A DNA stretch of 64,000 nt from Brachionus manjavacas (taxonomy: Eukaryota; Rotifera; Eurotatoria; Ploima; Brachionidae): positions 3,348,001 through 3,412,000 of the forward strand of contig JAHQIY010000003.1 in the NCBI GenBank assembly GCA_019054805.1, read 5' to 3'. Made by a program: the position numbers and the translations under genes. Numbering within the stretch: position 1 is the stretch's first letter; each line of letters opens with the position of its first letter. This document shows positions 3,721 to 55,500 of this stretch, piece after piece. The notes below the pieces were generated by a model. That model was not told the DNA's origin, did not search any database, and worked only from the letters and a program-made list of their open reading frames with translations.

Positions 3721-4438
3721 AAAATGCAGAATTTTTCTGATTTTTTTAGAAGATACAATTATATTGGGCTAAAATTTTTTCAAATAAATAAATGAATGAT
3801 AATTAAAAGCAAAAATTAAGTGGAAAATTTTTTTGATAAAGATTCATCACCCATTCAATGAAGATAATTACTACGATAATATAAAAAAGTTACAATAAAA
3901 ATAAAAATGGCTATGAAAAATATCAATTTTTCCTTTAACAATTATTTTAATTGTATTGATTTTTTGGTTTTAAAATTTTACTTTATGATCAACTTATAAA
4001 TCTACCGACTAAAGAACAAGATCAACAAAATCCATTTAAAGTTAAAGTGATGGAACAAAGAAAAGAAAGTTTGACTAAATCTTCTGAGGAACTGAAAAAG
4101 CGATATGATTTTTCCTCAACCCGAAGAATCATTTACCTTTATGAGAAATGATTTCAATTTTAAAAAATGAAGAAATAACTAAAAGAAATTAATTTAAAAA
4201 TGTTTACAAAAAGCTAAAAATAATTAATTTGAAAAGGATTCACAAAATTTAAGTTTTTCTTATTTAACAGCTAACTTTTGTCTAAACTTTATGATTTTAA
4301 AAATGTTTATAAAAATCAAGAGGTTTCGATTGATGTAAGGGTAAAAATGAAATCCTTTATTATTTAATCAAGAAAATTGTTTGCTTAAACCATACTATTT
4401 AATTTCAAAGAAGGAATTTTAAAATTTAATGAAAAAAA
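3721..4438 (+). other. Upstream region of the EB/lectin gene; short unassigned frame
   Basis: A+T-rich. One open stretch (about 3976-4150) encodes a hydrophilic peptide (KEQDQQNPFKVKVMEQRKES and on to SSEELKKRYDF) that I do not recognise. It has no good start, so I do not call a gene. No TATA box stands out directly before the ATG at 4439. Confidence 0.3.
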
Positions 4439-10955: not shown

Positions 10956-12286
10956 ATGTCGCTTGCTAAACAAGGACTATGTAATCCTACTAAGGTTCGA
11001 ATAAAATCAACAATGAATGATGTTTATTCAATTCAAAAAAATAAACTTTTGAATATTCTAAAATCAATTCATTTTATAAGTTTAACAAATGATAGCTGGA
11101 CATCATGTCAGAATTATACGTATCTTTTCATTACAGGACATTATCTAGAAAACTTTGCATTCAGATCTTTTGCTTTGGGTTTTAAATGTATGACTGAAAG
11201 ACACCGTGCTGAAGATATAAAAGAAATTGTGTTTGAGATTTTGAGTGAGTATGGAATTAGGGAAAAAGTTTTTGGAATTTTTAAAGATAACAACAGTACG
11301 GTAGTTAAAGCATCTAGACTTATGAAAGAAGAAATTGGTTGTCTTCCTATCCGTTACATGGGACATGTACTCCAGCTAATTGTAAAAAAAGTATTGAATA
11401 ACTGTAACTCTTTCCAACATAGCCATTTAGATGAGCTCGATGAAAATGATCCAAATTTTAGTTTTAAACAATCGGCCATAATAATGTCAAAATCACGATC
11501 TATATTGACCTCATTTAATCATTCTTCCCAGCTTAAATGTCTATTAGAAAAATATCAAAAAAATTCTGAAAATGTTTTAATGCTCACTCAAGATGTTTCA
11601 ACAAGATGGCATTCTACTTATTTAATACTAAATTTTAAAACTTCATAATTACATTGACGCAATTTTCCACTTACCAGAATATAGACATCTTGCTTTAAGT
11701 TTATTAAATCAAGAAGAGTTAGAGATTCTTTCTCTAACTTTAAAATATTTGAGTCTTTTTAATAAGTTAAGTGAAACAATGAGTGGAGAAACTTATGTGA
11801 CTACTACTAGTATGAAAATACCTGGATTTAAATTTATTGAAACAAAATTAGTGTTAAAGGAAGATGATATTAGGTTAAGCAAATATTTAAAAGTTGCTTT
11901 AAAACAATCTTATGATCACTATTGTATTATATATGATCTCGAATCAAATGATTTCTTAATAGCATCAACTTTCCTACACCCTTTTTATTAAGAATTCAAG
12001 TTCGTAAACCGAAATGAACGTTATTTTACAATCAAAAAGGCTAAAAATTTTCTTATTGATGTTTTCAATTCAATTCAATAAATACAGGAAAGATAGAAGT
12101 AATATCGATGTGTTGGATCACTGTAGGTTTAATAAATCCCAATTTCCTATACTATCTAGTTTAGCTACAGTTGTTTTGGCGATCCCAGCAACAAGTGTTC
12201 CAACGTTTATACATGCAGGCTATCAACTTTGGGACCGAAGAAATCGTTTGTCAAAAAAAAATTTTGAAAAGATAATTTTTATTTAA
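10956..12286 (+). pseudogene. hAT-superfamily transposase remnant
   Basis: Three open blocks in different frames read as one hAT transposase. Block 1 (10956-11648) has SLTNDSWTSCQNYTYLFITG, the DNN stretch after KVFGIF, the GHVLQL motif and the RWHSTYLIL box. Block 2 (11652-11991) follows after a frameshift and ends with ASTFLHPFY at a stop. Block 3 (12014-12286, frame-shifted) is the hATC dimerisation domain, with FPILSSLATVVLAIPATSVP and YQLWDRRNRLSKKNFEKIIF. The usual SxxERxFS segment is damaged. At least two frameshifts and one stop make it inactive. No terminal repeats or 8-bp duplication were identified. Confidence 0.85.
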
Positions 12287-15727: not shown

Positions 15728-18264
15728 CAGTAAAGTACGGTTATAACGAACACGAATGTAACGAAAATTCGTTTATAAAGAAAAATAAAACACTGTTGTT
15801 CAGAACAATAAAACTTTTAATTATTTATTTATTTGTTTTCTGTACCGAGCTAGAGCTCCTTCAGAATAAGTTAAAAATTAAAAAAATAAAATAAAAATGA
15901 AATAAAATAAAATAAAAATAAAATTAAAGTTAATAAAATAAGATAAAAAAAAAAAAAAAAAAAAAAAGAATTAAAAAAAGTAAATAAGCTAAATAAATGA
16001 AAATTAAGAATATATAAAATTGGAAAAGATTGTTACATGTGGCACATGTTTAAATAGTTCAAGTTTCAGGAAAAAAGAAGAAATAGTAAGGTAGCAATTA
16101 CACAATGGAGTTGGGTAGTCAATATATCTTGATTCGAAACCTTCTTTGTATTCCTTCACCAGTCTTACAACCAATGGAATAGAATGACTCAGTCCTGCCC
16201 CAACATATCTCTCACTCAATTCAAAAAGCCGATTCGAGACTGTTAGTAATTTTAGTTTATTAAAAGCCTCATGATGTACGATGTTGGAGGGAGTATCATA
16301 TTTTAACTTAAGAATAGATCTGACTGCTGTATTCTGAATTGCTTGTAGTTTTTTGATATTATTTTCTGAAAATGAATTCAAGCAAGGAAAAGAATAGTCT
16401 AAAATTGATCCGACTAAAGATTTATATAGATTTCCTAGTGTGTTCTGATTAAGACCCCATTTTTTGTTTGACAATATCTTAAAAATATTTAGCCTTTTAT
16501 TGCAGCGCTCTTTAATTTCATCTACCAGTATATTAAAGTTTAATTTAGAATCAAATTTAATACCAAGAAACTTGATTTCTTTTTGTCTCTCTATTCTGTT
16601 TCCATAAATTTTTAAGTTAAGATTATCACTCTCTTTTTTGTACCTAGAAAAGACTAATGAACACGACTTTTCAACTGATATCTTCATTTTCCACTTAATA
16701 AGCCATTGTTCTAATTCGTTGAGGTATTTATTGATCTTATTTTCTAGGTTCCCTTTTTTGTTATAAATGAAGAATGTAACTAGATCATCTGCAAAAAGCA
16801 GAGAGTATTCATTATTTGTTTTGTTTCTTTTAGGGATGTCATTAATGTATATACTAAATAAAAGAGGACTAATTACTGAGCCTTGAGGAACACCTGCAGT
16901 TATTTGATATTCTTCGCTCAAATGGTCATTCACATTTACCTTAAATGTCCTAGAGTCTAAAAAGGATTTTATCCAGTTAGTCAAGTAATGAGGTGGATTT
17001 ATTTTAATCAATTTAAAAAGTAAACCTTCATGCCAAACCCTATCAAAGGCTTTAGAAATATCAAAAAAAAGGCCGCAAACTCTTTTTTCTATTAAATGAT
17101 TCCACAATTTTTTGAATTAAGAAGAAAAGATTATCTGCTGTTCGCCGGTGTTTCCTAAATCCAGATTGCTCCTGGATAAGGAGTGAATTTTGCTCTAAAA
17201 ATTGTATAATCTTGAATATACTATGCGTACCAGTAGCTTTCCTAAACAACTCGTTATACTAATTGGTCTATAATTTAAAGGATCGTGTAAACTAGAGGCC
17301 TTTTTTGAATCATAGTAATGTAAGATGTTTTCCACGCTTTCGGGACTCTACCTTCTCGAAGAGTTAAATTAAAAAGTTCTATGATTTCTATTAATGAATT
17401 TCTAGGTAAGTTTTTTAACATTAAATTATGAATTTGGTCAGGTCCTGATGCCGCTTCATTTTTTAATCTCTTTAAAGCCATAATTAATTCATTTAAGCAA
17501 ATTGGATCATTAAAATTAGACTGGTTATAATTCCTAAAGAAAACAGAGTTAGAATTTAGAATTTCGATATCTTTCTCAGTATCAATTAAATCAGAATTAG
17601 GACTAAATATTGACGATAAGAGTTCTCCAAAGCATTTTCCCTTTTCTTCATTAGTTTTGAATTCCCTTTCATTCAATACATTTTCTTACGGTTATAACGA
17701 AGCATTTTTTGATAATTTTCAATGAAATTTTATTCGCTTGTAACGAAAATATTAAAAAATACATTTGAGAAATATTGGTTTCTTAATTTTTAATAATAGA
17801 AATCAGCAAATAAGTATGAATTTTCTTGAATACCGAAATCTTAAAACTAATCCCTACTTAATGATCAATTAATATTCTGAAAAATCACACATTAACCTTT
17901 ATAAAATAAAAAAAAAAAAGGAAAAATATTATGTTAAAAAAATGTTAGAAAAAACAAAACCAACTAAACGTAAGGTTTTTACGTTGCATGAAAAAGTAAA
18001 ATACATAAAGCTTATCGAAAGCAAAAAAAAAACTCAGACCGAAGTCTGCGAGGAATTTAAAATTCCAGTAGGTCTCCGATTATTTTAAATAATAATATAT
18101 AATTTTTTTTCATATTTATCATTATTATTTCTTTTTTAATTCGTTTTAATTAAATAAAAACTTAAAAAAAAAATTTTTTTGTCTTTTTCGGATGGAACGA
18201 AGTTCGGTTATAACGAACCGTTTTTTGATTCCCCCAGCGACTTCGTTATAACCGTACTTTACTG
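15728..18264 (+). mobile_element. Tigger/pogo DNA transposon, interrupted by a LINE
   Basis: The left end CAGTAAAGTACGGTTATAAC (15728) and the reverse-complementary right end (...ACTTTACTG at 18264) form a ~23-bp perfect terminal inverted repeat. TA lies outside both ends (15726-15727 and 18265-18266), as expected of the Tc1/mariner-pogo superfamily. Inside, 17942-18088 encodes a 48-aa CENP-B-type helix-turn-helix start (RKVFTLHEKVKYIKLIESKK ... EVCEEFKIP) of a Tigger transposase; the DDE domain is missing. A LINE A copy (15829-17686) splits it. Just right of that LINE, a second TIR-like GGTTATAACGAAG (about 17688) suggests either a rearranged element or two overlapping Tigger copies. Confidence 0.85.
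15829..17686 (-). mobile_element. LINE family A copy, longest in the window (linker, RT, 3' UTR)
   Basis: On the minus strand three frame blocks make one protein. 17676-17275 covers the linker and RT blocks (NEAASGPDQIHNLMLKNLPR, GRVPKAWKTSYITMIQK). 17249-17061 covers FLEQNSLLIQEQSGFRKHRR. 17107-16004 covers ISKAFDRVWHEG, AGVPQGSVISPLLF and LLFADDLVTFF through the thumb to the end. Two frameshifts separate them. Endonuclease and ORF1 are absent, so it is 5'-truncated. The 3' signature (TCTGAAGGAGCTCTAGCTCG, reverse complement near 15845-15866) and the AAATAAAT tail lie at its left end. It is inserted in the Tigger element, so it is younger than that element. Confidence 0.9.
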
Positions 18265-21429: not shown

Positions 21430-23130
21430 AAAAATGCTATAAGGTTTTAACAATGCCTATGTAAGAAGCAAAATGAGAGTAAAGAAAGAAATAAGAGTGT
21501 TAAGAACAAAAGAGGGTGAAGGAATGAGTGACAAAAAACTGATAGCTGAGCTACTAAATGATCAGTTTCATTCAGTCTTTAATAAAGAAACCAATGATAA
21601 TATTCCTTTTTTTTCTTTACGTAGTTCCTCTACTTTCGATATTGAGAATGTAATGCAGGAGCTAAACGAAAATCTGATTGAGCGGAGACTAGAAAAATTA
21701 AATGGCAACAAATCGATGGGCAAAGACCAAGTACATCCACTGATACAGAAAAACTGCGCAAAAAAGATGTACAAAAATCATTAGAGACAGGAAAAATCCC
21801 AAAAGAGTGGAAAAGAGCAAATAAAAAAGGAAGTAAATTAGAGCCAGTAAATTATTGATCCGTATCACTTACGTCAGTCGCTTGTAAAGTTCTGGAAGGT
21901 ATTGTCAGGGAACGACTAATGTTTTACCTTCAATAGAGAATAATCATGTAATTGGAAGTCAACATGGATTTGTTCCAAAGAAAGGGTGTGTAACGAACCT
22001 ACTACGTGGTTATGGGCTTGGAGAAAAATTAGTAAGGTGGCTCGAAGACTTTTTGAGTATGAGAACTCAGCGAGTTGTACTTGTTGATGGAGTTTGTAGA
22101 TGGTCAGAGGTACTGAGTGGTGTTCCGCAAGGCTCTGTACTTGGACCCCTGCTATTTGTTCTGTACATAAATGACCTACCTGACTGCGTTTCAAATAGAA
22201 TGGAGTTGTATGCAGATGACTCAAAAATACTCGGTATAGTTAATAATGTTTATGAGAGAGCAATGTTACAGAAAGATTTGGATGCAGTATGTCTATGGAT
22301 AGAGGTTTGGGACTGTGCGCTAACAAATGTAAAGTAATTCATTTCGGCAGACTAAATGAAAGGCGTAAATATTCACAAAAAAGCAAAAGGAATGTTAAAG
22401 TAGCCACAACAGAGTGTGAAAGGGATCTTGGAGTGATGGTTTCATCAGATTTAAAACGGATCAGCCAAGTGAAAAGTGCTTGTGTGAAAGCGAGTAGGGT
22501 ACTTGGAATGCTAAAGCGAACGTTTACAAGTAGAGAGGAAAGACTTTGGGTAAGATTGTATATATCCATGATTAGACCCCACCTAGATTACGCAGTGCAG
22601 GTTTGGAATCAAAGTATTAAAATGGACGTGAATGCGTTGGAAAAGGTGGAAGAGAGGGCAACAAAAATACCTTTGTCTGTAAGAAACATGCCGTATGAAA
22701 TGAGGCTGACAAAATTAGGACTGACAAAGCTGAGTGAAAGAAGAGTGAGAGGGGACTTGATTGAAATGTACAAATTAGTGAATGGAATAGAAAAGGTAAG
22801 CTTGGTCAAGAATCTAGTGAATAAATCAGAAAACAAAGGACCAGCCGGGGCGTTAAGAGGAAATAGCATCAGAGTCCAGAGAGAAAGTTTCCCAGCTCAA
22901 ATTAGAAACGATTTTGCGGTAAATGCCAGACATGTATTTTCTCAAACAGAGTAGTTCCGCATTGGAATAAGTTGCCAGAAAATGTGGTGAAATCCAAGTC
23001 AAGTAATTTTAAATTGGCTTTAGATAAATTCAATGGAATCGGCTGCTACAGCTCTACACGGCCAATTGGCGGTGATGGGCTTAGACAATCTACATGTTAG
23101 GTGTCGCAGCAAGAACTACTACTACTACTA
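21430..23130 (+). mobile_element. L2/CR1-type LINE (family B), internally deleted, (ACT)n tail
   Basis: The frame at 21473-21784 is the pre-RT linker (GNKSMGKDQVHPLIQK). RT pieces follow (KIPKEWKRANKKGSK, VTNLL). Then there is a direct jump to GLGEKLVRWLEDFLSMRTQR, so the first catalytic YxDxxKAFD block is deleted near 22005. RT resumes with GVPQGSVLGPLLFVLYINDL and the second catalytic box YADDSK (22210-22225). After a frameshift near 22320 the thumb and C-terminal domain (RPHLDYAVQVWNQSIK) continue. A final frameshift precedes VVPHWNKLPENVVKSKSSNF. The 3' end GTGTCGCAGCAAGAACTACT runs into ACT triplets (23112-23130). This family is unlike LINE A and is much richer in G+C than the surroundings. 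Dead copy. Confidence 0.85.
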
Positions 23131-23716: not shown

Positions 23717-25471
23717 TCAATACTTGGTAAGAGCAGAATTTCTTGATGATTTCTTCAAATCATTAGCATCAGATTTTGTGTTTGATTTTACTCTTGATTT
23801 TAGATTCGGTACAAAAGATATCATTATAAAAACACCTTGAAGTGAATTGAAAACTATGTACACATACCAGATAAAGGAATACTTATCATTTACCAAAGAA
23901 CTCAAAATTCCTAAAATCCACGTTATTCCAGTAATAAGAAATAATTTCAAAAAAAGAATTATCCTATTTCTATTCTTTCGCTTCACTTCCGAATCTAATT
24001 TTAAGGATTCATTTGAATTGTCAATTTTGACTATGAGCCCAATGCCTACAATGACCAGGATGAAATTAATGGCCAATATTATAGCTATTGGCACAATGAA
24101 AAAAAATAACAAATCAAGACTAGAAGATATGAAACAGTTGTTTTGGCCATAGGATATTCTTTTGTTATTTTTGACCAGCATGATAATGATCAAAACTAAA
24201 GGACTGACCCATCCGTACACAAGATATTTGATGAACAACTTTGAGCTTTTGTAAATATGCATCAGCATTGTGGACTGCGCAAACATTTGGTACAAGTCAA
24301 AAGCCATAATGTTCGACCAGAGAAAAAAAGCCAAATAAAAATAGTGAATGAATAGACCACTTAGATAGCATGGCAAAATTAATTCTATATTTTTTAATAG
24401 TTCTTTTGACGAGTTGAAAATTTGAATAGGCTTTTCAACATTTTCATTTTTAGACCAAAACATCGAAGCTAGGAAAAATATTTGAGAAAAAAGCAACGAA
24501 AATGTCAGATTGATGACTATTTTTCCGGGTATGTTGGTAAAAAGATTTCTAGTTTTATAAAAAAATAATAAAACAAGCAAACATATTATGGATGTTGATT
24601 GACCGACTATTGTCATATATTTTTTCATTTTGTCTATTTTTTTCTCGATTTTTTTGTCTAATTTAATAGATATGTTATTGCTAGAAATAATTTCAGCATT
24701 ATCTTCCAATTTTGCAGACAAACTATACTCTTTTCCTAGATTAGTTAAATCGAATAAGATCTGCAAACTAAAGCCAGCGTGCAAAGATGGTATGCCTTGC
24801 TCTGTAATCAGGCAGTACAAGTCATCTTCCATTTGATTGCATTTTGCACAATATTCATTTTTGTAAATTTTGCCGCTGTTTCCAAATCTGTATGCGGTAA
24901 AACTTGAGCACAAATTTGCCAGTTCATTGTCAGTATTTGGTGGACATGTTTCAATTGACTTGAAGCACGATCTCGGCTTAGGTTCAATGTCTGGTGGTAT
25001 AATCAAAAAGGCTGATTTTAAGGAAATATTTAGAGAAAATCTGTCGGGAATAACTTTAAAAAAAACGATTTTGTTTGTTTCTAAATTTTCTATATTACAT
25101 AAAGCGCAGAATATGTTTTTGTAGAAATAATTTGTTTGATTTGAATAAACCGGAGTAATGTGCCACAAATCAGTTTGTTCTTGTTCGCACCCAGACTTAA
25201 TACTAGGCTTGATTGAATTTCTACATTTTGCCATCAGAAAAGTGCCAAAAAATTCATTCACATAGATGCATTCATATTGATCTGGCTGATAATAGTTACT
25301 TGTGTTTTTATATGTGGTATCTTGGCAGCAATCAGAAAATTTGTCACAATCAGTGCAAAAACAGCACGGCTTTAATTCAGAACTTTGATTAAAGCATTTG
25401 TCATTACAAAAAAATGTAAACACAAAATTAAATTGAATTAGAACCAGAAGAAACAGGATTTTTTTAGACAT
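23717..25471 (-). CDS. Family-B-like (adhesion/Methuselah-type) seven-transmembrane receptor
   Basis: 584 aa in one uninterrupted exon. It begins with a signal peptide (MSKKILFLLVLIQFNFVFTF). The ~265-residue ectodomain has about 20 cysteines. Its start (CCFCTDCDKFSDCCQD) matches the somatomedin-B pattern C-x-C-x-x-C-x(4)-D-C-C-x-D, and several further Cys pairs (CALCNIEN, CAKCNQ) follow. Seven hydrophobic helices lie between about residues 290 and 550. The sixth contains FLKLFLITGITWILGILSSL, close to the family-B 'GxxWxxG' helix-6 signature, and the seventh has FNSLQGVFIMISF, the 'NxxQGxxIF' signature of adhesion/secretin receptors. I see no GPS autoproteolysis motif (no HL/T-S). The short C-tail is Ser/Lys-rich. 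Probably a plasma-membrane receptor; the ligand is unknown. Confidence 0.85.
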   Translation of the reverse strand: MSKKILFLLVLIQFNFVFTFFCNDKCFNQSSELKPCCFCTDCDKFSDCCQDTTYKNTSNYYQPDQYECIYVNEFFGTFLMAKCRNSIKPSIKSGCEQEQTDLWHITPVYSNQTNYFYKNIFCALCNIENLETNKIVFFKVIPDRFSLNISLKSAFLIIPPDIEPKPRSCFKSIETCPPNTDNELANLCSSFTAYRFGNSGKIYKNEYCAKCNQMEDDLYCLITEQGIPSLHAGFSLQILFDLTNLGKEYSLSAKLEDNAEIISSNNISIKLDKKIEKKIDKMKKYMTIVGQSTSIICLLVLLFFYKTRNLFTNIPGKIVINLTFSLLFSQIFFLASMFWSKNENVEKPIQIFNSSKELLKNIELILPCYLSGLFIHYFYLAFFLWSNIMAFDLYQMFAQSTMLMHIYKSSKLFIKYLVYGWVSPLVLIIIMLVKNNKRISYGQNNCFISSSLDLLFFFIVPIAIILAINFILVIVGIGLIVKIDNSNESLKLDSEVKRKNRNRIILFLKLFLITGITWILGILSSLVNDKYSFIWYVYIVFNSLQGVFIMISFVPNLKSRVKSNTKSDANDLKKSSRNSALTKY

Positions 25472-27680
25472 CTTTATTTTTTTTTAAGGAAAAAAAATGA
25501 AATAGAAATTTTGAATGAAAAATTTGCTTAAAAGCTTTAAAATGCTTGCTTAGTAAAATGAGATAACAATTGGAAAAAATTGAAAAGGCGTTAAAATATT
25601 TTTATTGATTTCTCAAATGTAAAATTTTGAATTAAATGAATTGAAATTATTTTTATTCTTTTTTTATTTATTTAAAAGGCTGATAACATGACGTTTTTAG
25701 TTAAAATACACCAAACAACAAAAAGACCGCATTCTTTAATAATTTGTGTAGGGATGACGCTTTGCAAAACGCAATTAAAAAAATTTTCTACAAAAAAAAT
25801 TTTTGTATTAAATCTTTTCTATTTTATTTAAAGGCTTTATAGAAAAAAATGAAATTAAAAAAATTTTTTTTTGACTCTTAAATTTCAAATCATTATTAAA
25901 TTTCAGATGATTTTTATTCATTTTGGTATTCTAATCGTATGAACTTTTTTTATTTTTTATAAAATTTTATTGATAAGTACAATGAGAATAAAAACCTACA
26001 TTTATTTTTGAAGTATAGTTTTATTTTTCTATTTGTTTATTTATCTGTGACGAACTAAATTTTCTTCAGGTTAAATAAAAAGAAAAATTAAGTAAAGTAA
26101 AAATATAATCACTATGCTCACCATTAACAGGCATTGTGGATTTTCATACAAAAATTCCAATACAAAAATTAAATTCTTAATAAAAATATGAATTTGTACT
26201 ACATATTTTTCTGTAAGCTTTAAAAGGTGAAACAAACAATGTTGCATTTAAGAGTCCAGTTTAAAGAAAAAATTTAAAGAAATATTTTACAATAATTAAT
26301 TATTTTTAATCAAATTGTATGTTAATTTTAAAATTAAAAATTAGAAATCTTATTCAAAATTGTTTCAGAAGCGATGATAGAATTTTAGATCATTTAAATA
26401 AAATAGTTTTACAAATTACAAAAAAAATTCTAATTAAAATAGATCATAGAGACAAAAATAAATAATTTACAAAATATTTTGTTGAATTTATTGAAGCATA
26501 TTTTGTTTCATGTTGTTTCGTCACAGAGTTTCAAAAGCTCAATTTTGTTAATTTAAATTAATGAAAAAGAATTTAATTTTTGTAATTTTATTTACTCTAA
26601 AAGATCTTGCTTTAAGAAATTATATGATCCTATATATTTGATAACGCAGCAGGTTGACAGCTATTAATTTAAAAATTCAGCTTAAATAATCTAATTATTT
26701 AAATCACCATAACATACTTTGTCAAAAGCTTTAGATATCGAAAAATAAATAGCAAATTTTTTATTTCTTTTAAAAGATTCAACAATTTTTTGAAATAAGA
26801 AAAAAATCAGTACGCCTGTGCCTTCTTAACACTCAAAAACCGATTTTTTTATACGTTAAGTACTAAGAGGGTTCGAAAAACCCCTTTTAAAAATATGCTT
26901 TTTTGATAACATTACAACAACTGTACAATTAGGATCCTATTGCTCTAAAAGCTAAGACTGGTCGAAAAGCTAATGCAAAAAATGTTTTGTTAAACAATAA
27001 AATATTTAGACATTTTTTTATTAATTTGGACTTAAACTAATTATTTTATTTTATTTATCTATGATAAATAATCTTAGACAGAAATTAATTATTTTCGACA
27101 TTTTTCATCGACAGGTAAAATTTTCTTTTCCTCTAAATCATTATCAAAGTTTTAACTTTTCTTATAATCATTATAAATATCATCAGAGACTTCTTGCTTG
27201 GTATAATCCGCATCGAGACTTGGTTCAAAAAGTTATTATTTATTATAGGAAATATTGAAATAAGTAGAGTTTGGAATTAAAAGCATATTAGCCATTTCTT
27301 TGATTCATTTATCAAAATAAAAGACAATATTTTTGGATGGTCAAAAAATCCCTCTTCTGGTTTAAATTATACTTTTTTCAGGCATTTAAATAAAAATATT
27401 TTGTAATCAAAATTTATCAACATTTTTTTGATTTTAAAAGGAAAAAAAATCGTCAAAAAAAATTAAACTAATTGAACAATAAGCAAAATGAGCACCAAAA
27501 ATCAATTAGTAAGACTGCGGGAACTATTGGGAGGCAATCTAGTCGTGAAACATTGGACCGACAAATCGATTCTAACATCTAAAAATAGGAACAACAATAA
27601 CAACAGTTATCATTTTTTCCCCCAAAATAATAAAGTACAATAAAACTAACTACCGAAAAATTTTAGTGAAAATACTAGAT
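25472..27680. other. Intergenic spacer with LINE A scraps
   Basis: A+T-rich. It holds a decayed LINE A 3' signature on the minus strand (26046-26076, TTCAGG...) and an RT fragment (26700-26830). On the minus strand 27055-27230 gives a hydrophilic frame (DADYTKQEVSDDIYNDYKKS) that I cannot assign. No confident gene. Confidence 0.45.
26700..26830 (-). pseudogene. LINE A RT fragment
   Basis: The reverse complement reads like the block around SKAFDKV preceded by KIVESFKRNKK, matching the region 'QKILESFNRKKK...ISKAFDRVW' of the copies at 17.1 and 61.7 kb. Short and decayed; orientation agrees with the 3' signature scrap at 26.05 kb. Confidence 0.55.
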
Positions 27681-30875: not shown

Positions 30876-30884
30876 TATAAAAAG
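30876..30884 (+). promoter_or_regulatory. TATA box of the tandem-exon secreted-protein gene
   Basis: TATAAAAAG lies 66 bp before the ATG at 30950. A start site 25-30 bp downstream would give a ~45-bp 5' UTR. A canonical TATA box suggests a strongly or cell-type-specifically expressed gene. Confidence 0.6.
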
Positions 30885-30949
30885 GGAATTGCTTTCATTC
30901 ATTTCTTATCAAACTAGTTTCCAAATAATTTAATTTAACAAAATCAACC

Positions 30950-32876
30950 ATGAAGAACTTGTCTTTGGCCATTTTGATTATCGGCACTATTGCCTTGAAT
31001 AGTGTATCTGCAAATAGTAAGATTATTAAAAATTAGACAAGAAAATATTTAATTGTTCATTCCAAGTCTGGAATCAGTGGAATAAAAGACAAGATGGAAA
31101 GTGGAAAGATTGGAAAAGACAAGTTGATCAAATGGAAGAAACAACAACTGAAATGCCAATGGCCCAAGGAGTTATGTCTGAATTGACAACTGAGCCACCA
31201 ATGGATCAACAAGTCCAAAGTGGTCTAGATGGTCAAGGAATGTTGCAAAGAAAACGTAATTTTTTTTTAAATCTTCTTCTGCAATTGTTTATTCTCTAAA
31301 AAAATAATTTGGTCCAGGTCAAGCAGATGGAAAGTGGAAAGATTGGAAAAGACAAGTTGATCAAATGGAAGAAACAACCACTGAAATGCCAATGGCCCAA
31401 GGAGTTATGTCTGAATTGACAACTGAGCCACCAATGGATCAACAAGTCCAAAGTGGTCTAGATGGTCAAGGAATGTTGCAAAGAAAACGTAATTTTTTTT
31501 AAATCTTCTTCTGCAATTGTTTATTCTCTAAAAAAATAATTTGGTCCAGGTCAAGCAGATGGAAAGTGGAAAGATTGGAAAAGACAAGTTGATCAAATGG
31601 AAGAAACAACCACTGAAATGCCAATGGCCCAAGGAGTTATGTCTGAATTGACAACTGAGCCACCAATGGATCAACAAGTCCAAAGTGGTCTAGATGGTCA
31701 AGGAATGTTGCAAAGAAAACGTAATTTTTTTTAAATCTTCTTCTGCAATTGTTTATTCTCTAAAAAAATAATTTGGTCCAGGTCAAGCAGATGGAAAGTG
31801 GAAAGATTGGAAAAGACAAGTTGATCAAATGGAAGAAACAACCACTGAAATGCCAATGGCCCAAGGAGTTATGTCTGAATTGACAACTGAGCCACCAATT
31901 GATCAACAAGTCCAAAGTGGTCTAGATGGTCAAGGAATGTTGCAAAGAAAACGTAATTTTTTTTTAAATCTTCTTCTGCAATTGTTTATTCTCTAAAAAA
32001 ATAATTTGGTCCAGGTCAAGCAGATGGAAAGTGGAAAGATTGGAAAAGACAAGTTGATCAAATGGAAGAAACAACAACTGAAATGCCAATGGCCCAAGGA
32101 GTTATGTCTGAATTGACAACTGAGCCACCAATGGATCAACAAGTCCAAAGTGGTCTAGATGGTCAAGGAATGTTGCAAAGAAAACGTAATTTTTAGTTAA
32201 ATCTTCTTCTGCAATTGTTTATTCTCTAAAAAAATAATTTGGTCCAGGTCAAGCAGATGGAAAGTGGAAAGATTGGAAAAGACAAGTTGATCAAATGGAA
32301 GAAACAACCACTGAAATGCCAATGGCCCAAGGAGTTATGTCTGAATTGACAACTGAGCCACCAATGGATCAACAAGTCCAAAGTGGTCTAGATGGTCAAG
32401 GAATGTTGCAAAGAAAACGTAATTTTTTTTTAAATCTTCTTCTGCAATTGTTTATTCTCTAAAAAATAATTTGGTCCAGGTCAAGCAGATGGAAAGTGGA
32501 AAGATTGGAAAAGACAAGTTGATCAAATGGAAGAAACAACCACTGAAATGCCAATGGCCCAAGGAGTTATGTCTGAATTGACAACTGAGCCACCAATTGA
32601 TCAACAAGTCCAAAGTGGTCTAGATGGTCAAGGAATGTTGCAAAGAAAACGTAATTTTTTTAAATCTTCTTCTGCAATTGTTTATTCTCTAAAAAATAAT
32701 TTGGTCCAGGTCAAGCAGATGGAAAGTGGAAAGATTGGAAAAGACAAGTTGATCAAATGGAAGAAACAACAACTGAAATGCCAATGGCCCAAGGAGTTAT
32801 GTCTGAATTGACAACTGAGCCACCAATGGATCAACAAGTCCAATTATTAGTGCCTTTAAGGTCGTTGGAATGGTAA
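30950..32876 (+). CDS. Secreted multi-unit precursor protein built from eight near-identical exons
   Basis: Nine exons: 30950-31016, 31067-31255, 31318-31488, 31550-31720, 31782-31952, 32015-32185, 32248-32418, 32480-32650 and 32710-32876. All introns are phase 1 with GT-AG ends; the joined frame is open for 482 aa. Exon 1 is a signal peptide (MKNLSLAILIIGTIALNSVS). Exons 2-9 each encode one unit of about 57 aa: QADGKWKDWKRQVDQMEE, then TTTEMPMAQGVMSELTTEPP, then MDQQVQSGLDGQGMLQRK. The last C of each exon joins GT of the next to code Arg, so each junction reads QRKR|QADG, a basic proprotein-convertase-type site. A second KR lies in WKRQ. The last unit ends in a different tail (QLLVPLRSLEW). 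There are no cysteines and no known domain. I infer a repetitive prohormone-like or secreted matrix protein. No homologue is recognised. Confidence 0.85.
31256..32709 (+). repeat. Tandem ~232-bp exon+intron repeat array (eight units, seven introns)
   Basis: Unit starts are spaced 232, 232, 233, 233, 232 and 230 bp (31318, 31550, 31782, 32015, 32248, 32480, 32710). The introns (59-62 bp) are as conserved as the exons. They differ only in the length of a T run after GTAAT (7-9 T), an AG interruption in the intron after exon 6, and 6 versus 7 A near the 3' end. All share the acceptor TTTGGTCCAG. This points to whole-unit duplication with recent homogenisation. Confidence 0.9.
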
Positions 32877-32881
32877 TTGGG

Positions 32882-32887
32882 AATAAA
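32882..32887 (+). terminator. Poly(A) signal AATAAA
   Basis: AATAAA begins six bases after the TAA stop of the tandem-exon gene; a second copy lies near 32945. Either could direct 3' end formation, giving a very short 3' UTR. Confidence 0.5.
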
Positions 32888-33315
32888 TTTTAGCGATTAA
32901 ATTTCAAAAAATGTTTAATGGCAAAAAATAATCTTAATTTTTTGAAATAAACTCTTGCTTATTAATTTTATTGTGATATTTTACTTGCTTCAATGTCATT
33001 TATTGGCATTTTCTCTATTTTGTAAGTGTTAAACTAATAAATCAGTTGAAAAGTATTTTTCAATGGTAAACAATAAGGAAAATTCTCATCTTATAAAGGA
33101 GTCTATTGAAATAAAATCATTAGACCTAAAAAAACTTAGTTACATGATACAATCCTCAATCCTAAGTTTAATTTTATTTCAATGATAAATGAAATTAAGG
33201 AACATGGTGATTCAAGGCTAAATTTTATATCAAAAAAAGGATTATATCAAGACAAATAAGCTTTAATTTATAATTTTTAGGAAACTTTTAAACATTTTTA
33301 GTTGTTTTTTTTTTA
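32888..33315. other. Intergenic spacer
   Basis: A+T-rich with no recognised gene or repeat. Confidence 0.4.
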
Positions 33316-40697: not shown

Positions 40698-41986
40698 GTT
40701 TTTATTTATCTAAGTAATCCTGAAGCTCAAAATATTGGTGATTTAAATGATGAAGATCCTTTTTATTTTGGAATTCAATTAGGTGATGGTAGCGATGATA
40801 ATCATTTCCATTTAGGATTTACAAGTAAAACCTTATTGTCTTTTATAGAAAAAGGTAAATTTATTATTTAATATCTAAACAATTTTTAAAAAATATACTT
40901 AAGGACAAATGTTCCATATTGACTGTACCTATAAAATTGTGAAGTATGGGTACCCACTAATAGTCTTTGGTACAACTGACCTAAACCGCAAATTTCACCC
41001 GATAGCATTTATGCTTACGTCACATGAACAGCAAAATGATTTCGATTATTTCTGGACTCAGCTAATTAATGTCTGTAATGTACTAAAAATAAGTATAGAT
41101 GTAATCAATTATATTTGTGTTGATGCTGATTATGCAATGGCTAATAGTTTAAAAAAAAATTTGCCTAACTCGAATATAATTATGTGTTGGTTTCACCTTA
41201 AATCAAATGTAATTTTTCTTTTAAACTCATTTTTTTACATAACTAATTATTCAATTAATAAAGATAAAAAAAAATTGTGATAAAATACCTGTAAATTTAC
41301 GTGAAAAAGTAAACTCATCTATTAGCGCATTGCATTCATGCACATCGAAAGAAAAATTTAATTTACTGATTGAATCAACATTAAAAAGTTGGAATGGTTA
41401 CAAAGGGAAGAATAATCTCAAACAGTTTATAAATTATTTTAGTAAACAATGGATTTATTCTCCATTCAATAATTGGCAAATTTTTAATACGCCAGGAGGA
41501 TATGCTATGACGAATAGTCCTATCGAGAGTTATAACAATATCATAAAAAAATTTTTTACAGATCGTATTAAATTAAACCTATTACCGGTATGCGAAATTT
41601 TTGAAACGCAAATTTTGATCCATTCAAGATCATTCTCGGCTTTTCCAGAATATATCTCGATTCCTTTGAGTATTAAAAAAATAGCAATTACAAATGACTG
41701 CATCAATAAAATCACTGAATCAGGGACAGATTTTGATGATAATGGTAATATTATTTTTATTTTTGACAATCGTTATCAAGTTGCTGTAAGCGATGAATGC
41801 TTTTGCGTTGATTGCTGCTATTGTTCGTGTTCATATTTTATGGACAAAGGAATGTGTGTACATCTAATCTCTTGTTTATTCAAAAATAAAATTAATTATC
41901 CCGGCTTATTAACTACAAAATATTTTCAAAATAGACCTAAAGCAGGTCGGAAGCGAAAAGCTGGTCCTTGTTTACAATATGATTAA
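40698..41986 (+). CDS. MULE-type transposase with SWIM zinc finger, spliced, 5' end not found
   Basis: Three exons join without a stop: 40698-40854, 40904-41208, 41264-41986 (phases 1 and 0; introns of 49 and 55 bp with GTAAAT...TTAAG and GTAATT...AAAG). The product, 394 codons long here, contains the MULE domain (MFHIDCTYKIVKYGYPLIVF, then DLNRKFHPIAFMLTSHEQ, with Asp in IDCTYK and DADYAMANS, and MCWFHLKSN). The conserved NSPIESYNNIIKKFF follows, and then a SWIM-type zinc finger (CYCSCSYFMDKGMCVHL). The C-tail is basic (KAGRKRKAG). The N-terminal exon(s), perhaps with a FLYWCH/BED finger, are not visible upstream; exon 1 here follows an AG acceptor at 40697. It is either a recently active Mutator-like element or a domesticated gene. 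No TIRs found around it. Confidence 0.75.
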
Positions 41987-45162: not shown

Positions 45163-45802
45163 ATGATCCGCTTTCTTAGCAACTATTTAAAGCCGAGCAA
45201 CAATCTTGTTTTAGCCAACCGACTATTAAGTAATTTTAAGGTATTTTTCATTTTTGTCTTTAATTCAAATTTTATAAAATCATGAGCTTAGTAAGTAGTA
45301 AAAATTTTAAATTGAAATAATAATTTTTTTTCCATAGGAAGGAAGTCAATTGCCAAACTCTGTCTTGTACGAAGAAAGTCCTGCCAATAAAGTGAACATC
45401 CGCGATTTATTTGCTGGTAAAAAGGGAATTTTACTTGGAGTCCCAGGCGCATTTACACCAACATGCTCCAACAATCACTTGCCGGGATTTATCAAGAATT
45501 TTGATCAAGTCAAATCAAAGGGCTATGAGGTAGTCGCCTGTGTGACTGTGAACGACGCTTTTGTCGCCGGCGCGTGGGCCAAGGACCGTCAGGCCGAAGG
45601 AAAGGTTCGCATTTTGGCCGATCCTCAGGCTGAATTCACCAAGGCTATTAACATGGACAAGGACCTCGCTGTGCTAGGTGGAGTGCGATCAAAGCGATAC
45701 ACCATGATCATTGACAACAATACTGTCAAAAAAGTATTTGAAGAACCCGATGGAACTGGCGCAACGTGTTCATTAGCCGACAATGTTTTGAAAAATATCT
45801 AA
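45163..45802 (+). CDS. PRDX5: Peroxiredoxin-5, mitochondrial (2 exons)
   Basis: Exons 45163-45240 and 45338-45802 (97-bp intron, GT...ATAG, phase 0) encode 180 aa. Exon 1 is a mitochondrial presequence (MIRFLSNYLKPSNNLVLANR). Exon 2 is the thioredoxin-fold peroxidase domain: the peroxidatic Cys is in GAFTPTCSNNHLPGF, and a Cys equivalent to the human resolving Cys151 is in TGATCSLADN. It should be an atypical 2-Cys enzyme that reduces hydrogen peroxide, alkyl hydroperoxides and peroxynitrite using thioredoxin. Length equals the family norm. Base composition is clearly coding. The ATG at 45350 within exon 2 would give only an incomplete protein, so the upstream exon is favoured. Poly(A) signal AATAAA at 45839. 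Two paralogues lie downstream. Confidence 0.92.
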
Positions 45803-45952
45803 ATTTTTTCTAACTTTATTTTAAAAGACTTTTAATTTAATAAAACTGCTGAAAATCCCTGAATTCTTTTGGATTTTTTTTTTTAAATTATTAATAGCGT
45901 TATTCCTAATTTTAATTTTTAGTGTTATTTTTATTTTTTATGTTTTTTTGGG

Positions 45953-45960
45953 TATAAAAG
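45953..45960 (+). promoter_or_regulatory. TATA box of the second peroxiredoxin gene
   Basis: TATAAAAG lies 44 bp before the ATG at 45997, so transcription would start about 10-20 bp before the coding region. It shows that this gene has its own promoter, despite lying only 194 bp after the first peroxiredoxin. Confidence 0.55.
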
Positions 45961-45996
45961 TGTCATATTATTTTAGAAATATATCCAATTTTCAAA

Positions 45997-46467
45997 ATGG
46001 TTAAAGAAGGAGATAAAATACCAAGCGAGCAAGTCTACGAAGGCAGTGTAGACAACAAAATAGACTCAGCTGAGCTATTCAGAAATCATAAAGGCATTCT
46101 CCTTGGGTTTCAGGGTGCTTTTACGCCAGTATGCTCACAAAAGCATCTTCCTGGATTTGTGGATAAAATGATGGATTTAAAAGTAAAAGGCTATGACTAT
46201 GTGGTATGCGTGACTGTGAATGACCCGTTTGTAACAACTGCATGGGCCAAGAATTTCAATTTGCCAGCCAATGTTAGAGTTATTTCAGATCCATGTGCTA
46301 GATTTACCAAGGCGCTTGCAATGGACAAAGACTTTCCTGGTCTAGGCATAAGATCAAAAAGATTCACTTTGGTTGTTGAAAATAACGTGGTCAAAAAAGT
46401 ATTTGAGGAACCTGATGGAGAAAGTGGAACAGTCAGTCTTGCTGAAAATGTTATTAAAAATTTATAA
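45997..46467 (+). CDS. Peroxiredoxin-5-like, cytosolic, 1-Cys type
   Basis: 156 aa, single exon, no presequence. The peroxidase core is complete (GILLGFQGAFTPVCSQKHLP with the peroxidatic Cys; CVTVNDPFVTTAWAK). The position of the resolving Cys (TCSL in the neighbour) is Val here (SGTVSLAEN), so it cannot make the usual intramolecular disulphide. Other cysteines (YVVCVTV; SDPCARF) remain. It should reduce peroxides but probably depends on another reductant or partner thiol. It is a tandem duplicate of the mitochondrial gene upstream. Confidence 0.9.
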   Translation: MVKEGDKIPSEQVYEGSVDNKIDSAELFRNHKGILLGFQGAFTPVCSQKHLPGFVDKMMDLKVKGYDYVVCVTVNDPFVTTAWAKNFNLPANVRVISDPCARFTKALAMDKDFPGLGIRSKRFTLVVENNVVKKVFEEPDGESGTVSLAENVIKNL

Positions 46468-46527
46468 TTTAAAAAAAATAAATTTAAATTTTATTTTGTT
46501 TCATTTCTCAGTTTGATTTAACTGTGA

Positions 46528-46547
46528 GTCTCTATGGCGCAATCGGC

Positions 46548-46584
<37 letters not shown>

Positions 46585-46601
46585 GAATCCACCTAGGGAC
46601 G
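46528..46601 (+). tRNA. tRNA-Asn (anticodon GTT)
   Basis: A 74-nt cloverleaf: acceptor stem GTCTCTA/TAGGGAC (one mismatch or wobble pair), D arm with A-box TGGCGCAATCGG, anticodon stem TTCGG/CCGAA closing the loop CTGTTAA (GTT), and T arm GGTGG-TTCGAAT-CCACC with the B-box. No intron. Discriminator G. Confidence 0.95.
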
Positions 46602-46605
46602 AATA

Positions 46606-46611
46606 TTTTTT
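46606..46611 (+). terminator. RNA polymerase III terminator (T6)
   Basis: A run of six T starts four bases after the tRNA-Asn. Confidence 0.75.
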
Positions 46612-46734
46612 CTTTTTATTTCAAATATTTATCTTGCAATTTTCAAATATTTCAAGCATTCAAATAGACATTTTTAAAATTTTTTCAATCAAAGTGTTTA
46701 AATAGGAAATGTAATTTTTAAAATTAAAACAAAA

Positions 46735-46990
46735 ATGGGTAAAAAAGACGAATACATTTTAAAAAGTTACTTTCGAGCCCACAAAGGTGATTTCAATAAT
46801 ATTTTGGTCAATTTTTTTTCATTTTTATCTAGACAAGGACCTCGATGTCGAAATGTGTCTATCAGCCTTGGGCATTGACATGATTTTTAAGGTAAATTAC
46901 CCTCAAAATAGCAAAAGTGCTAAAATTGAAATGACACTTGAGCCAAAAAAAGATCTCCGAGTGACAAAAAAAATTAAATTTAAACATTGA
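46735..46990 (+). CDS. Hypothetical small protein, 69 aa, two exons
   Basis: Exons 46735-46786 and 46833-46990 join in frame across a 46-bp intron (AAAG|GTGATT ... TTTATCTAG|ACAAGG). The product starts MGKKDEYILKSYFRAHKDKD, continues LDVEMCLSALGIDMIFKVNY and ends basic (RVTKKIKFKH). It has no signal peptide or membrane helix. The composition and the very short but well-formed intron suggest a real gene. I do not recognise the family. It lies 134 bp after the tRNA, in a compact cluster with the peroxiredoxins. Confidence 0.5.
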
Positions 46991-47862
46991 TTTAAGAATA
47001 AATTTTTTTTCAAATTTTGAAATAATCCTGTTTTTTTTTTACCTAAAACTGCCTAAAGTTAAAGTCTAGATAGTTTTAATCTAGAGTTTGAAAATTAAAA
47101 TCAAGTGTGTGCTGTCAAAGACTGATTTCGAATTTACATTGGAAAATATTTGATGATTTCGAAAATTTAGTCTCTTCAAAAAATTAAATTTTTTTATCTA
47201 AAGCCTATGATTTTGCAAAAAATTTTCTTAATATTAAAATTCTTGCAATCTGGAATGAATTTCGTTACTCTACGTTGTAGTTTTTCCTTCTTATCTTCTT
47301 CCAAGCAAGAATTCCAGACCATGACTCCATATTCAATAAAGGGTTTAGAACTTGAAAATATTTCCTTAAAAAAATAAAAGATATCAAGAATGTTTAAAGT
47401 CTCTTTTTTTTTAATTTAAAATTTAGTTATTATAAAGGAATAAAATGTAACATAAATTTTTGCATCTATTGTTAAATTAAAAGCATTTTATAAATGTTAA
47501 AAAAATAAAATAAATTTCTTTTATCGTTTTTTGCTGTTCTTTGGTACCAAGAGTTCACAAAACAAATATTTACTAAAGGCGTTTTTCGATTAAAATGAAG
47601 GAATTCATTTAATTAAAATATTATTTGGCTCCGCTATTTGGCAAAAGCGAATTTTTTTTACAACATTTTGATTAAATTAATTTTATTAGCTTTAAATAAT
47701 TCTTAAAATAAATGTTCCAATATATTAAATCAAAAATAAATCATGAAGTTTAGTAAAAAAATTTTCTGAATTTTTTAATTTAAGCCAAATGTAGAATTAA
47801 TTTAATAACAATAGAAAAAAATATTTTTGCTTATTTATTTAAATTAAATAAATGTGAAAATA
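46991..47862. other. Intergenic spacer with a LINE scrap
   Basis: Besides the LINE fragment at 47190-47390 it is A+T-rich and featureless. The 3' UTR of the minus-strand peroxiredoxin lies at its right end. Confidence 0.4.
47190..47390 (-). pseudogene. LINE RT C-terminal fragment (L2/CR1-like)
   Basis: The minus strand reads SSSKPFIEYGVMVWNSCLEE then DKKEKLQRRVTKFIPDCKN. This matches the 'RPxLEYAxxVWNPxxxxDxxxLExVQRRATKxIP' block of L2/CR1-type LINEs. Isolated. Confidence 0.65.
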
Positions 47863-48333
47863 TCAGAGAAAAGTAAAAACACTTTCTGCTAATGAAATCG
47901 AAGTATATTTTGGATCTGGTTCAAGAAAAATTTTCTTTGCTCTATTGTTATCAATAATCATAGCATATTCTTTTGATCTCAGTCCCAATTCAGAATATTC
48001 CTCATCCATTCCGATTGCCTTAGTGAATGTGGCGCGTGGATCTGCAATTAAACGAATATTGCTTGGCAAGTTATAAACTTTCTCCCATTCTGATGTTACA
48101 AATGGATCGTTTACCATCACACATACCACATAATCATATCCTTTTTCTTTTAATTGATTAATCCTGTCTATATAGCTAGGCAAATGGTGTTTGGAACAAA
48201 TTGGAGTAAATGCTCCCTGAAAACCAAGAAGAATGCCCTTTTTGTTTTCGAAAAGTTGATGAATACTAAATTTATTCTCTACGCTTCCTTCGTAAACATC
48301 CTCGTTTGGCAACTGATCTCCTTCTTTTAACAT
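47863..48333 (-). CDS. Peroxiredoxin-5-like, third paralogue, 1-Cys type
   Basis: 156 aa, single exon, oriented opposite to the other two. The peroxidatic Cys is kept (GAFTPICSKHHLPSY). The resolving position is Ile (YTSISLAES). Several positions conserved in the other two are altered (GLRSKEYAMIIDNNRAKKIF; the C-terminus ends VFTFL; EPDPKY replaces EPDG), so it is the most diverged of the three. Codon use is more A+T-rich than in the mitochondrial copy. The start is the first ATG of the frame and matches the start of the cytosolic paralogue. Confidence 0.88.
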   Translation of the reverse strand: MLKEGDQLPNEDVYEGSVENKFSIHQLFENKKGILLGFQGAFTPICSKHHLPSYIDRINQLKEKGYDYVVCVMVNDPFVTSEWEKVYNLPSNIRLIADPRATFTKAIGMDEEYSELGLRSKEYAMIIDNNRAKKIFLEPDPKYTSISLAESVFTFL

Positions 48334-49189
48334 TTTTTAATTCAAAGTTGTTTCATCTATTTTTGAACGTTTTATAGAATTTTTTAACATTTTAAGCATT
48401 CCTTCCTAATTTCAGAGTCGCTATTTCTAGAATTTATTCAAGGATAGTTAATAAATAATAAGCAGTATAATTTTTTATATTTAAATTATTTATAGATATC
48501 TAAAAAAAGTCACATTGACTTTGCATCAATCATCTAGAGTATCTTGCAGTGTAGATATTTGCAGTTGATTGTCTTATTAAGTTTGAACGCTTTGTATTCA
48601 AAACATGTCTTAAAGTTTACCTTTGATAGCACTGCTGTTGCTGAATTAAAATTTTTCGAAAGTCAATTCTTAACCTTAATGCTTGCTAAAAATCCATTTG
48701 AATTATTGTTTATTAATTTTTAAATACGGTATGTGGCTTTTATTTAAATAGCCATTAAAACATAAGTCATGTGCATCAAGATTTGGATTTTCGTGTTCAA
48801 TAATTGACTTTTTAAATCTTATTCAATTTTTGAATTGCTTAACTTGCCTGTTTTTTAATTTTTCAAAAATTATTGGAAACGTTTTATTTAAAAAAAAATT
48901 TAATTTAATGAATGGTTTACACTTTGCCATTCAGATTTGGTCAAAATTTAATAAAATGGTAATTAATAGTTTGATTTTAAAAGCTAAATAATTACAGTCA
49001 ATAAACTTGAGATAAAATTTTTAATTAAAATCTATAGCTTTTTCAGAATAAAAATATAAAATCAATAAAAGTTAAATAAAATAAAATTCCGAGTAACAGG
49101 TTTAAATATTTAAGGTTTCAGGAAAAAATAATAAATTATTAGGGAAAATAATTACACAATGTTTTTGAGATTGGATTTTTTCACTCCTA
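48334..49189. other. Intergenic spacer with a LINE A 3' UTR scrap
   Basis: A+T-rich. 49090-49160 resembles the 3' UTR of LINE A on the minus strand (TTTAAATATTTAAGGTTTCA and AATTACACAATG). No gene seen. Confidence 0.45.
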
Positions 49190-52554: not shown

Positions 52555-55500
52555 TTAAAGCTTTAGCTGCGGCAAACTGGTTGCATTCGCTTGCTGGAGT
52601 ATATTCTTGAGGAGATTTTTGGGTATTGGATTGTTGGCCTGTAAATGGTGCAGAATTGTGTTGAGCCAAAGATGGGTCTTGGCAAAAGCGGGCCGATTCT
52701 CGGGATCGAGCTCGCAGCAAGCGATGGCTATCTTGATAAACTGCTTGGGACAATCGGGCTCGCAGTACTTCTTGCGGAACAACTCCACGTTGAGTCCGAA
52801 GTCGCTTGTGCGCGGCAAATAGTCCGGGTCGGCCTGCACCCGCCCAATGATCTCACAACAAATGATGCCAAACGAAAATATGTCCACTCTCTCGTCGTAG
52901 ATCTGGTGCTTGAGCATCTCGGGCGCCATCGAAAACGAGTTGCCCACAACTGCGTATCGGCGCCTGTGCGTGTTGATGGCCCGCTTTTTGAGCTTGCGTT
53001 TCGCCGCCACTATGAACGAGTTGGTCGCCGAGGACGACTCGGGCGACTCGCTGTGCATCATGCGCACAAACGAGCACGACGACGCACACTCGCTCACAAA
53101 CAGCGACGAGTTGTTCTTGTTGCCGCTCGAGTTGGAGTATTGGACAATTCTGCTGAGGCCGAAATCGGCCACGACCACACTCCGGCCGTTCTCCCTGACC
53201 AGACAATTGTCCGATTTGAGATCGCGGTGTATTATGTTGAGCGAGTGGAGGTACTGCATGGCGGAGGCGATGTCGCGCGCAAAGCCCACGCGCAGCTTCC
53301 ACTGCAGCGGCGCGTTTATGTTGTGAATGATGTCCTTGAGAGTGCCGCCGCTGATGTACTCCAAAATTAGGTTCAAATGCTTTTCCTTGGTGAACATGAT
53401 GCCGAGCATTTTGATGACATTCGGATGGCTGAGATTGCGCAGCACTTGGGCCTCCTTGAGAAAAGACTTGTGCGCCGAGTTCATCTCGGCGTAGTTGAGC
53501 GGCTCGGACTTGGAGTCCGGGTCGGCCTCGGGCTTGTCGTCCTTTAAATTGACAAAGTTCAGCTTGAGCTCTTTGAGCACTATTTGCGGCTGGTTGGTCG
53601 ACGCTTGTTTGAACTGGATGCGGCGCACATTGGCAAAGAAGCCCTCGCCCAGCTTTTCGCCGAACACAAAGTCGTTCTCCGAGTAGACGAGCTTTGTTTG
53701 CGTGAGGTCTTTGAGCGAGCGCACGCGTCTTATGTCGACGCGGGCCGTGTGCAGGCAGTGGGAAGTGCCGGGCGCTCGCTGAGCCGCCGGCTTGGCACCG
53801 CACGAGCTGTTGATGGTCGTGTCCGACTTGTCCGCCGAGTGTTTGGACGCGGACTGGCAGTGAGCGGCGCCGGCCTCCGTGTCGAGCTCTTCGTCGCCGC
53901 TCAGCTCGTCCAGCTCGTCTTCGGACTCGCAGCTGAAGTCCGAGTCGGACGGCTGGTCGCGCACATTCGGCGACGAGGACACTGGCTGCTTGGAGGCGGC
54001 GGACGCGCACGTGGCCCCGCACGTACACTGCGTGTTCAGCAATATTGAGTTGAGCGGCAAGTGGTTGAGACTGAGCCGGTAGAAGTTGAAAAAGTTGGCG
54101 CTGTGGTTGGTCGAGTTGGACGCGGGCATGGTTGCACTGCTGTTCGAGTGGTTGTCGCTGCTGTTGTAGCCGGAGGAGGAGGACGTGTGCTGGGAGTGGC
54201 TGAAGCGGCTCGTGTTTATTCTGTTCAGGTGGCTCAAGTAGATGTTGTTGGCCAGGTTGGAGTTCAGCTGGCCGCTTGACGATGTGCTCAAGTTGTTTGT
54301 TTGTTGATTGTTCATGAAGAGCATTAGGTTGCGTTGCTGCGAGAGCTTTTTCAGCTCGTATTTGTTCAGCGCCATAGAGGTGTTCAAGTAGTCCAGTAGA
54401 GAGTCAATGCTGGAGAGAGTAAAAATAAAAAATAAAAAATTAAGTTAAGTAAAATTAAAAATTAAAAAGTTAAGTAAAATAAAATCAAAAAATAAAAATA
54501 AAAATATGAATAAAGTTTGTTAAAGTTAATAACCTGGAATAAAAAATAGATATATGATAATGAGAGTTTTAGGTCATTCAGGTTTACATAGTTTAGGTTT
54601 CAGGAAAAAAAGAGGAAATTGTAAGGTAGCAATTTAATTTTTTCAACCACTTGCCGCTCAACTCAATGTTTTTGGCTAAATTAGTTTTTGAATTAGTGAT
54701 AAAATTAAAGAAAAGTGATAATCTGATTGAGCCAGTGTCACAAACCAATTATGGTGAATAAGCCTTTGAATGCTCATTTATTAATTAGTTTGTCTAAACC
54801 GGACATTTAAAAATATGTATCCTGTTATTCTCTATATCAATATATCTAATTTTTATTTTCTTCTATTTTAACTTTTTTTATTTTTTTTTTTTTTTTTTTT
54901 TATATATTTCTTTTCTTATTTTAAACTTTATTTTGGTTTTTTTTGTTTTTTTTTTTTTTAATCTGAAGGAGCCTTAGCTCGATACAGATATACAAATAAA
55001 TAAATAAATAAACCAAAATTATATTTAAAGTAAATCGAAATACAAGAAACAAAATTCTGCATGCAATCGCAGATAGATCGACAATCCAAAAAGGCCTTAA
55101 AAACCTAACAATAAACTATTTAACTCGCTCAACTACAATAATTAAATCAGTTTAAAAGTCGTGTTCAGTAGTCTTCTCTAGGTACAAAAAAGAGAGTGAT
55201 AATCTAAACTTAAAAATTTATGGAAACAGAATAATGAACCAAAAAGAAATCAAGTTTCTTGGTATTAAATTTGATTCTAAGTTAAATTTTGATATATTAG
55301 TAGGCGAAATTAAAGAACGCTGCAACAAAAGGCTAAATACTATTAAGATATTGTCAAACAAAAAATGGGGTAAATATTAGTCTATTCTTTTCCTTGCTTG
55401 AATTCATTTTCAGAAAATAATATCAAAAAACTACAAGCAATGCGGAATACAGCAATCAGATCTATCTATAAGTTAAAATATGATACTCCCTCCAACATCG

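Follow-up and report, generated by a model that had tools for sequence, protein, structure and literature searches.

Here we describe a putative nine-exon gene on the forward strand at 30950-32876 of the window, the 64-kb stretch of Brachionus manjavacas DNA that was analysed, and we read it, tentatively and at a little short of an even chance, as encoding a multi-copy secretory peptide precursor that is cleaved. On this reading the signal peptide would be removed, KR and RKR would then be cleaved on their C-terminal side by a proprotein-convertase-type protease, and every exon would yield a QADGKWKDW along with an acidic peptide of 43 residues; the released peptides would all start with Gln, likely as pyroglutamate, and unequal crossing over would have copied the exons, giving more peptide copies per transcript and keeping them alike. 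Cleavage and peptide activity are what we infer from the arrangement of the sequence. If expressed as predicted, the gene would be an invertebrate case in which one exon corresponds to one processed cassette and introns are homogenised alongside exons, so that copy number could change without breaking the frame. The array also gives concrete peptide masses to seek and a locus at which unequal crossing over could alter the dose of a signal.

Predicted gene structure and spliced product

Splicing in silico joins a signal-peptide exon to eight repeat-bearing exons, all in phase 1, and gives a coding sequence of 1449 nt (482 aa plus stop) with no cysteine, as the sequence-only reading had proposed. 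All eight predicted introns run GT..AG in phase 1 (50, 62, 61, 61, 62, 62, 61 and 59 nt). If left in place, seven of the eight would bring in a stop in frame and the remaining one (59 nt) would cause a frameshift; without splicing, the longest stop-free runs in 30900-32900 are 113 codons in sense and 55 in antisense. Because the repeat period (232/233 nt) is not divisible by three, successive unspliced units fall out of frame with one another, and the repeat stays in frame only when ~61 nt are removed.

Exon 1 (30950-31016, 67 nt, ending in phase 1) encodes the putative signal peptide, MKNLSLAILIIGTIALNSVSA/N, the slash marking a cleavage site predicted by the -3,-1 rule. It is the strongest hydrophobic stretch of the protein; judged by hydropathy and the same rule it would act as a signal peptide, and the 482-aa product, ~53 kDa if it stays whole, is probably secreted. 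Intron 1 (31017-31066, 50 nt, GTAAG..AAG) differs from the seven other introns, which are near-identical and 59-62 nt long (31256-31317, 31489-31549, 31721-31781, 31953-32014, 32186-32247, 32419-32479 and 32651-32709). Exon 2 (31067-31255, 189 nt) carries IWNQWNKR and the first unit, and is followed by six full 57-codon units of 171 nt, namely exons 3 (31318-31488), 4 (31550-31720), 5 (31782-31952), 6 (32015-32185), 7 (32248-32418) and 8 (32480-32650), with exons 5 and 8 being Met-to-Ile variants. Exon 9 (32710-32876, 167 nt) holds the terminal unit and the stop TAA at 32874-32876. The predicted layout is the signal MKNLSLAILIIGTIALNSVSA, NIWNQWNKR, QDGKWKDW-KR-(43 aa)-RKR, six units of QADGKWKDW-KR-(43 aa)-RKR, and finally QADGKWKDW-KR-(33 shared aa, then LLVPLRSLEW). 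The earlier description of eight nearly identical 57-codon exons thus holds for the six full units, whereas the first, with its own 5′ end, lacks the Ala codon and the last aligns over only 134 nt (99.25%) before its unrelated tail.

A TATA-box-like sequence, TATAAAAAGG, lies at 30876-30885 on the same strand, 65-74 nt 5′ of the ATG, and is a candidate promoter element; it is the sole exact match in the window, with 0.8 expected by chance and at least one found in 53 of 100 shuffles. A candidate poly(A) signal, AATAAA (32882-32887, forward strand), begins 5 nt past the stop.

Basic sites and predicted peptides

The way in which basic residues are distributed speaks for a precursor that is cleaved. 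Sixteen di- or tribasic sites are present, and Gln follows all 16, although these represent only some three independent kinds of site and Gln makes up 15% of the protein. Five of the seven basic residues in each unit fall within KR or RKR, the 43-residue spacer holding none, and clustering of this kind was rare under permutation (0.000405 for the run, 0.021 for adjacency and 0.000205 for both); the peptide copies are in this sense dibasic-bounded, as in multi-copy peptide precursors. At the exon borders the final Arg codon of RKR is divided between two exons, which makes one exon one cassette. The predicted cleavage products are seven copies of QADGKWKDW, one of QDGKWKDW and 43-residue acidic peptides, in keeping with the seven copies and the acidic peptide noted earlier from the letters alone. 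The spacer has a charge of about -8, while QADGKWKDW is near neutral (about -0.2).

An amidation signal (G[KR][KR]) was sought in the protein and is absent, with no Gly before any dibasic site. C-terminal amidation signals are common among peptide precursors but are not required. With no amidation sites, a neuropeptide is no likelier than an exocrine gland product, and the absence of an amidating Gly, together with a low-confidence helix across the KR site (see below), weighs against a classic neuropeptide. The sequence-only reading had left open whether the product is prohormone-like or structural; the basic residues tilt that choice towards a cleaved product, and the missing Gly and the helix pull the other way.

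Comparison with known precursors

The nearest precedent that we found for tandem exons with near-identical peptides is the frog skin peptides. Caerulein, magainin and hymenochirin precursors have a signal peptide, an acidic spacer and tandem exons encoding near-identical peptides, possibly homogenised, and unequal crossing over has been proposed as the means of exon copying in the caerulein and magainin genes (PMC3899252). The likeness, one of anatomy, extends to the acidic spacers, which resemble the 43-aa spacer; in contrast, the frog peptides are antimicrobial and come from another phylum, whereas QADGKWKDW is near neutral. The locust SG-SASP precursor has a signal peptide and multiple copies separated by Lys-Arg, is listed with a sequence that lacks an amidating Gly, and is a salivary gland product (PMC5533153). 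Its peptide differs, and cloned-exon copies are not described in the sections of that report consulted (PMC5533153); as an exocrine case, it indicates that precursor anatomy is no proof of a neuropeptide. In Nasonia, nasonin-6 consists of exon-duplicated defensin-like repeats, one per exon, with phase-1 introns (PMC2853521). It is alike in having one repeat per exon in phase 1, and unlike in that its repeats are defensin-like and without protease processing signals. The APGW/AKH precursor of B. plicatilis was also considered and set aside as a different gene, described as intronless (PMC10730642).

A possible intact secreted repeat protein

The main alternative, to which we give a substantial though smaller share of belief, is an intact secreted repeat protein that is never cleaved and acts, as a surface coat, matrix or glue, in the manner of the mate-recognition (MMR) proteins of rotifers; identical units would then multiply a helix and a flexible acidic Thr/Pro/Gln linker, with copy number setting length and avidity. 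MMR genes encode a signal peptide, a short leader and near-identical repeats with a net negative charge, for which concerted evolution has been proposed, and the last repeat is truncated and followed by a few unrelated codons; the UTRs of the MMR-B3 transcript are very short (PMC2746195, PMC3495898). The present gene shares the signal peptide, the short leader, the head-to-tail near-identical repeats, the net negative charge, the truncated last repeat with an unrelated end, and the lack of a known domain. MMR-A and -B, however, have no introns, units of 87-92 aa and 55-60% non-polar residues (PMC2746195, PMC3495898), against 34% or 42% non-polar content here (two ways of counting), and the excerpts of the MMR reports make no mention of dibasic cleavage. 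Full MMR sequences carry the accessions GQ374516-GQ374518 (PMC2746195).

A single-sequence AlphaFold model of the unit predicts a helix at residues 2-20, spanning the KR site, with a mean pLDDT of 61.5 and a pTM of 0.30, and such a helix would suit an intact protein. Against this, the helix leaves out 37 of the unit's 56 residues, and pLDDT is below 70 at 41 of the 56. By charge-hydropathy the composition falls on the disordered side (mean H 0.366, boundary 0.432), a point in favour of the precursor reading. An amphipathic helix crossing the KR site is weakly supported: permutation gave 0.028 for residues 1-18, 0.040 for residues 5-16 and 0.069 for the first-unit variant, and the 9-mer QADGKWKDW by itself is not amphipathic (0.40). 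The residues picked by eye for such a helix are A2, W6, W9, V13 and M16. Transglutaminase cross-linking is one use of Gln and Lys, and contents of 15% and 7% would suit it in an intact protein. That reading leaves the clustering of basic residues at KR and RKR, each followed by Gln, as evidence against it.

Variation within the array and its origin

Tandem Repeats Finder places the array at 31092-32843, with a period of 232/233, 7.5 copies, 98% matches and a score of about 3400, far ahead of every other array listed for the window, all of which score below 200; a further copy of the unit was sought in the 64 kb and none was found. The seven complete unit bodies (the last 164 nt of exons 2-8) are identical except at two positions, a silent one (Thr) and one that exchanges Met and Ile. 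The seven repeat introns comprise five distinct sequences, differing in the lengths of T and A runs and by one two-base change. The introns show almost as little variation as the exons, so the array has been recently homogenised, and the sameness of the units is in consequence no evidence of function; the small intron-over-exon excess of variation is too little to show selection. Dosage amplification by exon cloning, as suggested earlier, is a plausible idea, yet the near-identity of the units needs no cause beyond recent homogenisation.

Taken in order along exons 2-8, the two variable sites read A-G, C-G, C-G, C-T, A-G, C-G, C-T, and exon 9, which differs from exon 3 at one of 127 compared bases, at the first variable site, continues this with A-G. 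The ordered block C-G, C-T, A-G is thus present twice, in exons 4-6 and 7-9, as would be expected under unequal exchange of multi-unit blocks. We think it unlikely that the tandem duplication is real but belongs to an unexpressed gene, encodes a nonfunctional product, or owes its copy number to assembly. The close likeness of introns to exons would fit that account, as would the lack of a clear coding signal from codon usage (trained on seven genes): among 1564 overlapping stop-free windows that lie outside the training genes, 175 equal or exceed the score of the unit. All eight units nonetheless keep an open frame in consistent phase, with GT..AG splice sites, and the repeated mosaic is not what a simple assembly echo of a single unit would produce. 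The unit's two other sense frames outscore the coding frame, yet hold two and four stops.

Two ideas concern the origin of the ends. There is a suggestive but weak case for NIWNQWNKR as a diverged copy of the KWKDWKR module, which 228 of 5000 codon shuffles, and likewise 26 of 6208 sampled forward-strand segments, resemble equally well; a frameshifted unit end as the source of the exon 9 tail is unsupported, with 1164 of 6208 segments equally good.

Searches for relatives

Pfam, NCBIfam and PDB searches with a shortened protein gave no convincing relative (best E-values 0.055, 0.012 and 0.082), which bears out the earlier statement that no known domain is present. Of five pattern matches to the unit among viral contigs two were confirmed (46% over residues 2-27); one viral match (L001), alike mainly in ADGKWKDW within otherwise dissimilar sequence, was taken as chance. 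A collection of genome contigs gave 25 pattern matches and no relatives. Within one paper library, outside which most subscription journals lie, a search for the peptide string found no paper and topic searches found no title naming such a gene. The failure to find a relative, and with it any sign that the peptide part is conserved, counts against the precursor reading.

Six published MMR primers (some shortened, ambiguity codes fixed) found their best sites in the window with 3-8 mismatches, none of them in this gene; the third-ranked site of one primer does fall here, with mismatches at 9 of 26 positions. An apparent match to the N-terminus of the mate-recognition pheromone, MRP, (0.0095) lay in the signal peptide and came to 0.49 by shuffle for the mature protein. 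We do not file the gene as an MMR, from which introns, unit length and the available sequence fragments set it apart, although it may work like one. Membership of the MMR family through divergence beyond recognition is very improbable despite the similar gene plan, given intronless MMR-A and -B with longer units against 57-codon units with 59-62-nt introns here, and a comparison, made by primers and the Edman N-terminal peptide only, that left both unmatched.

We regard as a very long shot the idea that the exon array makes a waterborne peptide signal, such as a monogonont density or sex-induction cue, whose dose and species identity would shift with exon gain, loss and homogenisation. The mixis trigger of many monogononts is described as a poorly characterised secreted peptide or protein of small size, and the N-terminus of the B. 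plicatilis signal as resembling a mammalian steroidogenesis-inducing protein (PMC3701536).

Other features of the window

Of the 32 2-kb steps, 31 have a GC content of 0.21-0.34 and one reaches 0.48; reported figures for Brachionus genes are 26.4-29.2% GC and introns averaging 118-392 bp (PMC6555955). The GC-rich step reflects an island of 48% GC, in a window of ~28%, that holds a protein kinase gene (52555-54444, reverse strand). A Cys-rich EB-module frame at 8192-9352 lies within 4433-9355, where the preceding frames seem to belong to that gene too; its end appears C-type-lectin-like by eye, and an apparent 53-nt GT..AG intron (8201-8253, by eye) is similar in style to those of the repeat gene. 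A single open frame of 588 aa at 23717-25483 (reverse strand), Cys-rich at its N-terminus by eye, has a 7tm_2 domain and suggests a secretin/adhesion-type receptor. Reverse-transcriptase-like fragments occur at 16004-17116 (reverse strand, with RVT_1) and, by eye, at 21888-22954 and 61675-62577, with no Pfam match at 0.001 for 22256-22951. Transposase-like frames were seen by eye at 10926-11648 and 40903-41986, and the pieces 10926-11645 and 41243-41983 had no Pfam match at 0.001. Three peroxiredoxin-like genes lie in 45338-48336, two on the forward strand that match Redoxin and a third on the reverse strand recognised by eye, and a tRNA-Asn (GTT) gene is located at 46528-46601.
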